Translations under genes and position numbers: made by a program
The notes under the pieces: model-generated
Databases searched by the model: none
What the model was told of the DNA's origin: nothing
The model's input: only the letters and a program-made list of their open reading frames with translations
Assembly (NCBI RefSeq): GCF_024508665.1
Contig: NZ_JANINP010000007.1
Span: forward strand, 248,001-312,000
Direction: 5' to 3'
DNA from: Sphingomonas sp.
GTDB taxonomy: Bacteria; Pseudomonadota; Alphaproteobacteria; Sphingomonadales; Sphingomonadaceae
DNA: 64,000 nucleotides
Shown here: one piece after another, positions 2,713-62,002 of the stretch
Layout of the letters: each line of letters opens with the position of its first letter
Numbering within the stretch: position 1 is the first letter of the stretch

Positions 2713-3258
2713 ATCCGTCCTCCCACGATGCGCCGACCAAACCAGGCGCCGCCGATGAACGGCCCCCGATTCAACGAATGGATCCAGTCGCCCAAGGTTC
2801 GAGTGATCGACCATGAAGGCGAAAATCTGGGCGTGATGTACACCAGAGAGGCGATGGAACAGGCGCAGAGCCTTGGCCTCGACCTTGTCGAAGTGTCGCC
2901 GAACGCCGATCCGCCCGTGGCCAAGTTCCTCGATGTCGGCAAGTTCAAGTACGAGGCGCAGAAAAAGGCCAACCTCGCTCGCAAGAGCCAGAAGACGCAG
3001 GAGATCAAGGAGATCAAGATGCGTCCGAACATCGACGATCATGACTATGATACGAAGATGAAGGCCATTCACAAGTTCATCGGCGAGGGCGACAAGGTCA
3101 AGGTGACGCTCCGTTTCCGCGGCCGCGAACTGAGCCACGGCCAGCTCGGCATGAATCTGCTCAAGCGCGTGCAGGAAGACACGGCCGAAGACGCGAAGGT
3201 CGAAAGCTATCCGCGCATGGAAGGCCGTCAGATGCTGATGGTGCTCTCGCCGAAATAA
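2713..3258 (+). CDS. infC: Translation initiation factor IF-3, proposed ATC start
   Basis: IF-3 sequence ([47 protein letters not shown]). AAAGGAG ends 8 nt before ATC at 2713; the GTG at 2683 and ATG at 2728 are poorly placed relative to it. Confidence 0.93.
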
Positions 3259-3269
3259 GGCTCGGTGCA

Positions 3270-3363
3270 GCGGAATAGCGACGCTATTCCGCGCCCGGCA
3301 CTGAGCCCGGCCGGCGGCGCGCAAGCGCCGACCGACGGCGCGGATTTACTCCGCGCCGGCTCC
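3270..3363 (+). repeat. Three-hairpin element, copy A (3' of infC)
   Basis: H0 CGGAATAGC-gac-GCTATTCCG; CGGCCGG; H1 CGGCGC-GCAA-GCGCCG; CCGACG; H2 GGCGCGG-atttact-CCGCGCC; GGCTCC. Confidence 0.75.
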
Positions 3364-3496
3364 GCTACCCAAAAAATACCGGCGTCATCCCGGCCTTGTG
3401 CCGGGCCCACTCTGCCGCAAGCGTGGAGCTTGAGCCTCTAATCCTCGCCAACCTGAACGGCGGATGCCGGGTGAGGCTTAGAGGCAGAACGGCGCG

Positions 3497-39503: not shown

Positions 39504-39980
39504 ATGAGTGATGGACTGCCCGATAGCCTGATTCCGTATGATGAGATCGTGCAAGAGGCATTGCGCGCCGTGGTCGGCCGCGTGCTGGGCTCGGTCGCGG
39601 CCGGCGGCGGGCTGCCCGGCGAGCACCATTTCTATATCACGTTCAAGACCCAGGCGCCCGGAGTAAGCATTCCCGAGCGCCTGATCGAGCGGTTCCCGGA
39701 CGAGATGACGATCGTCCTGCAGAACCGCTATTGGGACCTGACGGTCGACGACGAGCGATTCTCGGTCGGGCTGAGCTTCAATCAGGTGCCGTCGAAGCTC
39801 GAAATTCCCTATTCAGCGATCACCGGCTTTCACGATCCGGCGGTCAATTTCGAACTGCGTTTCCAGGCGCAGGAAGGACCTGAAGGTCCCGAACCGCATG
39901 ACGAGGCCGAAAACGATCATGTCGAGCGCGTCGATGACGGCTCGAACGTCGTAAGCGTCGATTTCAAAAGGAAGAAGTAG
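39504..39980 (+). CDS. SspB family ClpXP adaptor
   Basis: IPYDEIVQEALRAVVGRVLGSVAAGGGLPGEHHFYITFKTQAPGV; alphaproteobacterial SspB pattern. Confidence 0.9.
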   Translation: MSDGLPDSLIPYDEIVQEALRAVVGRVLGSVAAGGGLPGEHHFYITFKTQAPGVSIPERLIERFPDEMTIVLQNRYWDLTVDDERFSVGLSFNQVPSKLEIPYSAITGFHDPAVNFELRFQAQEGPEGPEPHDEAENDHVERVDDGSNVVSVDFKRKK

Positions 39981-40010
39981 GCCGAAGCGAGCCGCGCAAG
40001 CTGCGCGGCG

Positions 40011-40093
40011 GTCACCTATTGGTGACGCGAACGGCCGGCCGGTGCGGCGATAGCCGCGTCCGACGTCACGGGATTTACTTCCGTGACGGCTCC
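40011..40093 (+). repeat. Three-hairpin element, copy B (3' of sspB)
   Basis: H0 GTCACC-tatt-GGTGAC; CGGCCGG; H1 GCGGC-gata-GCCGC; TCCGACG; H2 GTCACGG-gatttactt-CCGTGAC; GGCTCC. Confidence 0.75.
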
Positions 40094-40133: not shown

Positions 40134-40223
40134 CGTCACCCCGTCCTTGTGCCGAGGTCCACTCCTCCATTCGCGAGATGAGGGGTTGTTGCGCGGTGGA
40201 TGCCGGGACAAGCCCGGCATGAC
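40134..40223. repeat. Dispersed ~90-bp palindromic repeat, divergent copy 3
   Basis: GTCACCCCGTCCTTGTGCCGAGG ... GGATGCCGGGACAAGCCCGGCATGAC. Confidence 0.75.
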
Positions 40224-40259
40224 GAAGAAGGTGAAGGCCTTCTATGGTAACGGCTAGGC

Positions 40260-60086: not shown

Positions 60087-61833
<1,747 letters not shown>

Positions 61834-61840
61834 TTTTGGA

Positions 61841-61944
61841 CGGGAGCAGCGAACGCTGCTCCCGATACGAAATCGGAACGGCCGGCGGGCTTCGGCCTCT
61901 GGCCGAAGTCCCGTCCGACGTCAGGCAGCGGCTTCGCCGCTGCC
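61841..61944 (+). repeat. Three-hairpin element, divergent copy C (3' of groEL)
   Basis: H0 CGGGAGCAGC-gaac-GCTGCTCCCG; GGCCGGC; H1 TTCGGCC-tct-GGCCGAA; TCCGACG; H2 GGCAGCGGC-ttc-GCCGCTGCC. Confidence 0.6.
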
Positions 61945-61957
61945 CCGACCAGACAAA

Positions 61958-61996
61958 AGAAGGGCCGGTGGAGCGATCCGCCGGCTCTTCTTTTTT
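61958..61996 (+). terminator. Intrinsic terminator of groESL
   Basis: AGAAGGGCCGGTGGA-GCGA-TCCGCCGGCTCTTCT then TTTTT. Confidence 0.93.
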
Positions 61997-62002
61997 ACGA
62001 GA

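Follow-up and report, generated by a model that had tools for sequence, protein, structure and literature searches.

A dispersed repeat of the Sphingomonadaceae with a portable hairpin core and a 5' hairpin often complementary to host gene ends

The window, i.e., the whole 64,000-nucleotide stretch of Sphingomonas sp. DNA analysed here, carries copies of a large repeat family that is apparently specific to the Sphingomonadaceae and not described before. The element is a non-coding, dispersed repeat, about 100 bp long, made up of a portable core and a 5' module (P1). P1 is a hairpin between the 3' end of the host gene and the bases before the linker CGGCCGG of the core, and this frequent complementarity of the variable 5' hairpin to the host gene end was not foreseen by the original prediction. 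That prediction had left two readings open, a structured 3'-UTR element or a structure-constrained mobile repeat. The mobile repeat fits better, because near-identical copies are found at unrelated genes, some copies are intragenic and the stems show no G-U excess. The transcribed 3'-UTR position is real for many copies. We give a probability of roughly 0.5 to the reading that the element is mobile and REP-like, that template switching at gene ends both forms its stems and preserves them, and that it is then transcribed as a hairpin domain of the 3' UTR.

Copies in the window and anatomy of the family

The two elements originally reported, one after infC and one after sspB, are present in the sequence as quoted (Table 1). 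The strict linker-loop-linker pattern occurs in the window at these two sites only, and 0 of 100 shuffles gave as many. Both copies fold as successive stem-loop domains, of which the first is two-hairpin in the sspB copy. The infC element had been placed from position 3270. We moved its start to 3259, right behind the stop codon, because the first hairpin lies within an outer stem; in the sspB copy, the element begins directly behind the stop codon, at 39981. In the infC copy, the GGC at the end of hairpin 3 can form a weak 3-bp closing stem with the GCC before CGGCCGG. The refined covariance model R2 found this copy with E = 1e-11. The name sspB was taken over from the original prediction, no NCBIfam model having matched, and an orthologue of the gene is present in 31 of 31 near-complete genomes of the genus.

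A third, more diverged copy that had been missed lies after groEL, between the stop codon and an intrinsic terminator. The gene is presumably groEL, a name that we took from the protein terminus and not from a family search. The P1 stem of this copy extends into the last codon. A related copy is present at the groEL end of another species (G028:C7:321691).

Table 1. Positions of the host genes, element parts and neighbouring repeats in the window
Feature	Position	Strand	Basis or remark
infC 3' portion (IF-3), host gene of copy 1	2740-3258	+	TIGR00168 at the locus; stop TAA 3256-3258
P1 of copy 1	3259-3307	+	RNAfold -33.1 kcal/mol
Copy 1, P1 outer stem GGCTCGGTGC/GCACTGAGCC	3259-3268/3298-3307	+	
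Copy 1, P1 inner hairpin GCGGAATAGC-GAC-GCTATTCCGC	3270-3292	+	
Copy 1, linker CGGCCGG	3308-3314	+	Near-invariant across 120 copies
Copy 1, hairpin 2, CGGCGC-GCAA-GCGCCG	3315-3330	+	Covarying helix 1 of alignment A2, 98.6% of cells paired
Copy 1, linker ACCGA (family NYCGA)	3331-3335	+	Conserved
Copy 1, hairpin 3, CGGCGCGGA-TTTAC-TCCGCGCCG, then GCTCC	3336-3363	+	Helix 4 of A2, 94.8% of cells paired
CGTC-type REP behind copy 1, outside the element	3383-3409	+	Sequence against the description in PMC3733652
sspB, host gene of copy 2	39504-39980	+	Stop TAG 39978-39980
P1 of copy 2: outer GCCG/CGGC with GC/GC; inner hairpins GCCGCGC-AAGCT-GCGCGGC and GTCACC-TATT-GGTGAC	39981-40035	+	RNAfold -32.1 kcal/mol
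Core of copy 2: CGGCCGG, hairpin 2 TGCGGC-GATA-GCCGCG, TCCGA, hairpin 3 CGTCACGGGA-TTTAC-TTCCGTGACG, GCTCC	40036-40093	+	R2 72.1 bits, E = 4e-12
Two CGTC-type REPs facing each other behind copy 2, outside the element	40134-40161, 40197-40224		PMC3733652
Third copy, after groEL	61828-61952	+	R2 25.8 bits, E = 0.003 in the window
groEL stop TGA	61831-61833	+	
groEL copy, P1 stem TTCTGATTTTG/CGAAATCGGAA, beginning inside the CDS	61828-61838/61868-61878	+	
groEL copy, CGGCCGG	61879-61885	+	Then enlarged hairpin 2, TCCGACG, hairpin 3
Intrinsic terminator directly after the groEL copy: GC-rich hairpin, then TTCTTTTTT	61954-61997	+	

The family core consists of CGGCCGG, hairpin 2 (6 variable pairs), NYCGA and hairpin 3 (about 10 pairs). 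Hairpin 3 is often GGGA-UUUAC-UCCC and elsewhere GCGGCUUUGCCGC. The loop ATTTACT, which had been reported for both the infC and sspB copies, is present in both and is better written A-UUUAC-U, the A and U being paired. It marks a subset and does not define the family, because the strict pattern gives only 2 sites in the whole of the genome from which the window comes.

A palindromic repeat had also been noted behind each of the two copies, and these repeats match the description of CGTC-tagged REPs. Such REPs are small, palindromic and mostly extragenic, occur in S. wittichii and S. chlorophenolicum among others, and have a single stem of 8-9 bp, a loop of 4-5 nt, an unpaired CGTC tag and a CCA(-like) tail; no dedicated transposase is known for them (PMC3733652). 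The element differs from them in its two core hairpins, fixed linkers, conserved CGGCCGG and host-tailored 5' hairpin, and it has no CCA tail. It was therefore rejected as a CGTC-tagged REP, whose members adjoin the copies as separate repeats. Two unrelated repeat families are thus co-located at the infC and sspB gene ends.

Range of the family and position of its copies

The first covariance model (R1) was seeded with nine copies, taken from infC and sspB loci and from one pattern match, and R2 was built from 120 aligned copies. The core modelled was CGGCCGG-hairpin-NYCGACG-hairpin. Genome-scale counts rest on covariance-model searches and on the loci fetched around the matches, and the E-values of the models are rough. 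The expectation of further copies in this genome and its relatives was borne out: R1 at E <= 0.1 found the element in 57 of 61 Sphingomonas genomes, with 1 to about 50 copies per genome, including 20 in the genome of the window (G000) and 51 in S. lenta (G003). At the more sensitive E <= 1, where the weakest matches may be chance, the counts rose to 27 in G000, 70 in G003 and 56 in G028. Across the order, R2 found the element in 28 of 201 genomes, all from the single family Sphingomonadaceae and spread over 10 genera. In 238 other genomes of the class Alphaproteobacteria, outside the genus, R2 found none, which serves as a negative control. The Rfam scan of the window copies gave no family above the gathering threshold and nothing usable at E <= 10; the best sub-threshold match was P13 (20.5 bits versus 70 needed). 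The openly accessible literature on structured RNAs and repeats of sphingomonads describes no matching element and no host-tailored arm.

GC-rich genomes contain many palindromes, and a permissive model could align such chance palindromes. The empty outgroup, the strongly non-random location of the copies and the conservation of the unpaired linkers already refute this explanation, to which we give practically no weight.

The element was also present in three genomes labelled Bacillus sp. 2B10, Arthrobacter sp. TPD3018 and Microvirga sp. SRT01 (L238, L257 and L267). The labels or assemblies of these three may be wrong, the element being otherwise restricted to the Sphingomonadaceae.

A random orientation with respect to genes can be dismissed. 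The copies are strongly oriented, with the end of a sense gene directly upstream. Across many genomes, 129 of 181 copies had the stop codon of a same-strand CDS 0-85 nt upstream of CGGCCGG (median 48 nt), compared with 22 of 181 in the mirrored antisense test and 5.1% for random positions in the same loci; the gene calls were codon-usage calls made in this analysis. In three genomes, 7 of 94 copies start behind the CCA of tRNA 3' ends, and some copies begin downstream of an intrinsic terminator, after its T-tract. Carrier genes in the genome of the window include rpoA, rplQ, rplL, nusG, rho, infC, ihfB, lpdA and nrdB. Occupancy at any one gene is patchy, the element being found at 2 of the 30 infC loci read and at about 9 of 30 sspB loci. 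In a clade of four species (G018, G024, G034 and G082), which was examined for empty sites, all four neighbouring sites compared are occupied and pairing is kept through compensations. We infer that the copies that persist are mainly those whose position, directly behind a stop codon, a tRNA end or a terminator, leaves genes intact. The stretch between nusG and rplK in G000 (C1:37470-37773) contains a facing pair of copies, of which the sense copy follows nusG and the other is antisense.

The position at gene ends, including those of tRNA genes, would also suit a transcription terminator, either a U-less multi-hairpin or a factor-dependent one. No U-tract terminator was detected downstream of most copies, and several element-free infC orthologues have a U-tract terminator at this place. 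The consensus shows no T-tract directly behind hairpin 3 and so does not qualify as an intrinsic terminator. Many copies are arranged as stop codon, element and intrinsic terminator, and where the terminator follows 35-41 nt after the copy, as in several cases, it would be redundant if the element itself terminated transcription. Other copies follow terminators, and one sits between rpoA and rplQ. A terminator is accordingly an improbable explanation.

The clearest sign of dispersal came from S. lenta, where the copies at C1:98353 and C1:316714, behind two unrelated genes, are identical at 102 of 103 bases. The shared stretch begins shortly before the stop codon and extends through hairpin 3. 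Two intragenic copies, a small minority of all copies, show insertion. One lies antisense and in frame inside cydA of the genome of the window, where the segment AWHLL...MFSMA has 46 residues versus 20 in relatives without the insert (net +26, with diverged boundaries). The other interrupts terL of S. lenta, in frame and antisense; we take terL to be a terminase of the gene-transfer-agent type, as read from the sequence. A precise empty site with a target duplication was not recovered, the flanks in cydA and terL being too diverged. Neither a transposition event nor a trans-acting enzyme was seen, which counts against the mobile reading.

The in-frame insertion in protein genes seen at cydA and terL is also a feature of the Rickettsia palindromic elements (RPEs), which are likewise alphaproteobacterial and palindromic (PMC10969869). 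RPEs have been found mainly in coding genes, whereas the present element lies mainly flush behind genes; the two were compared by description.

Further arrangements were observed at single loci. A second, partial core-like stretch stands in front of the antisense copy at the terminase locus of S. lenta (L152:1680-1880). A tandem duplication with a period of 120 bp was found behind lpdA in G018 (L331:1107-1287), and three copies stand in a row in Sphingomonas endophytica (L278:5551-5805). In G028 (L179:1644-1960), a short gene, presumably of the DUF2945 type as read from its sequence, is seemingly split by a sense copy.

A classical REP or REPIN moved by a RAYT (Y1) transposase would likewise be short, palindromic and extragenic, with many copies 3' of genes. 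The Y1 transposase (PF01797) is absent from 7 of 8 carrier genomes (G003, G028, G012, G099, G246, G034 and G014), and the remaining one, G000, has a single such gene. RAYT was thus rejected as the mover for most genomes. The element has several stem-loops with diverged stems, and its consensus lacks the GTAG tag, so that it was also rejected as a GTAG REP. We regard this explanation as very improbable. The attC-like sites of integrons, which also follow stop codons, were rejected as well, since the carriers are core genes and the motifs CGGCCGG and CGACG are not attC core sites. The nearest kinds of element are REPs, RPEs and template-switch hairpins, and the element lacks the defining features of CGTC and GTAG REPs.

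Complementarity of P1 to the host gene end

The bases just 5' of CGGCCGG tend to repeat, in inverted orientation, the 3' end of the gene that they follow. The longest Watson-Crick run between the last 15 nt of the CDS and the pre-linker bases gave z = 7.3 over permuted pairings (117 distinct gene ends), a score that, like the following ones, overstates independence because the copies are related. For CDS windows from -30 to -3, z was about 4, and upstream of -30 it was about 0. The complementarity of the CDS end reached z = 7.8 in 119 carriers versus z = 2.2 in 230 non-carriers. Pairing in P1 mostly begins with the stop codon's last base or the base after it.

The best matches between host and arm span 15 bp or more. 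In GAGCTGAAGAAGGGC-TGA-GCCCTTCTTCAGCTC, the stop codon itself forms the loop. An extreme match pairs GTGCacCGGGAAGGCTGA with TCAGCCTTCCCGacGCAC, and at rpsD GGTCGTCGAATTTTaCTC matches GAGAAAATTCGTCGACC. The lpdA match is present in 6 of 8 species, with up to about 22 pairs. These extreme cases exceed chance by far.

Many copies show little or no pairing with the CDS. In minimum-energy folds, 54 of 128 copies paired 4 or more CDS bases with the final 20 nt ahead of CGGCCGG. Strong complementarity to the host is limited to a minority of copies, which counts against the template-switching reading. At infC, the CDS end GCTCtcGCCG partly matches the 3' arm of P1, CGGCactGAGC (duplex -12.8 kcal/mol), and this pairing competes with a better arm behind the stop codon. 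The swap test at lpdA was weak, with -27.2 kcal/mol for the own arm versus -25.0 kcal/mol for swapped arms. We speculate that inverted copying of the resident gene end remakes the 5' half of the repeat wherever it settles, so that a selfish core would manufacture gene-specific 3'-end structures, possibly controlling translation termination. This proposal is tentative, and we hold it at rather less than even odds.

Pairing at the RNA or DNA level

The reported covariation between copies, with pairing kept, extends to the whole family. Among 120 copies, 16 of 16 core pairs had changed on both sides. Double-change cells numbered 309, whereas shuffles gave 82 and slid controls no more than 30, and 96.3% of cells were paired versus 76.6% in shuffles. 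The covariation score was 0.42; slid controls did not exceed 0.07. The weak 3-bp stem closing around hairpins 2 and 3 was found in the exact register (z = 6.3). The covariation thus exceeds both kinds of control, as for a structured RNA under RNA-level selection.

If the fold of the sense RNA is under selection, G-U pairs should exceed A-C mismatches. In the pair cells of the element (n = 1782), G-U occurred 20 times (1.1%) and A-C 22 times (1.2%). The control, 32 tRNAs from the same loci, had 19 G-U (4.9%) and 5 A-C (1.3%). The pairing looks maintained at the DNA level, because G-U is not commoner than A-C, unlike in tRNA stems. A smaller comparison of orthologous sites gave 22 G-U and 12 A-C states, which counts against the template-switching reading, and an RNA component may contribute.

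Template switching is known to make and maintain hairpins (PMC8794818). Quasipalindrome mutation of this kind yields perfect stems in one event and compensation without a G-U intermediate (PMC8794818, PMC7202029), as proposed for the present element; the element differs in being recurrent and anchored to a conserved core and to gene ends. The family shows changes from one Watson-Crick pair to another without G-U steps, long stems that pair perfectly around very small loops, and inverted copies of neighbouring sequence, all of which template switching predicts (PMC8794818). Under the mobile, template-switching reading, the core would be copied to new sites by a putative trans-acting activity, or would recombine, and would settle near gene ends. 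Replication through the core hairpins at a new site may then lead to snap-back template switching. The snap-back would copy the host sequence of the gene end in inverted form, up to the core, and P1 would thus be host-templated. Later template switching (quasipalindrome correction) could keep the arms complementary from Watson-Crick pair to Watson-Crick pair, with no lasting G-U steps. Lying behind the stop codon and before the terminator, the element would become part of the mRNA as a rigid 3'-UTR domain. An effect on translation termination, on 3'-end stability or on both is plausible. Template switching alone gives no explanation for the strand bias and the flushness with the stop codon, and this counts against the proposal.

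A selected 3'-UTR RNA domain is the main rival. In this explanation, the element is a cis-acting structured RNA that stabilises the 3' end of the mRNA or tunes translation termination, dispersed by recombination, and its RNA fold is selected, including the pairing with the coding end. This explanation fits the sense orientation of the copies, the start of P1 right at the stop codon and the location of the element between that codon and an intrinsic terminator. Orthologous copies are kept in place across species, often between stop codon and terminator, with compensations at nusG, rplL, rpsD and other sites, as expected of a selected RNA. The carriers, from rpoA to ihfB in the list above, are often highly expressed, and in E. 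coli, REPs located no more than 15 nt from a stop codon are reported to stall ribosomes (PMC12306157). Against it stand the family-wide count without G-U excess over A-C, the copies behind intrinsic terminators, behind tRNAs and inside antisense coding sequence, and the patchy occurrence at the same gene. We consider it somewhat unlikely.

Pair covariation is the standard proof of functional RNA. With hundreds of natural compensated stems that are seemingly DNA-made, the family offers a test of how often template switching mimics RNA selection. In addition, core genes (rpoA, rplL, nusG, rho, groEL and infC) of an environmentally important family would carry a widespread 3'-end feature that annotation lacks.

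Two known 3'-end structures resemble the element. The L17 downstream element is a structured element of the rplQ 3' UTR (Weinberg 2010, PMC2864571), and one copy of the present element follows rplQ; the present element follows many genes, and the Rfam scan covered the window copies. In E. coli, about 11% of the REPs are found 15 nt or less from a stop codon (PMC12306157) and, like the present element, place a hairpin directly behind it. The element differs in that most of its copies are near a stop codon and that this codon can be part of its stem, a point of relevance for translation termination and for any mapping of 3' ends in sphingomonads.
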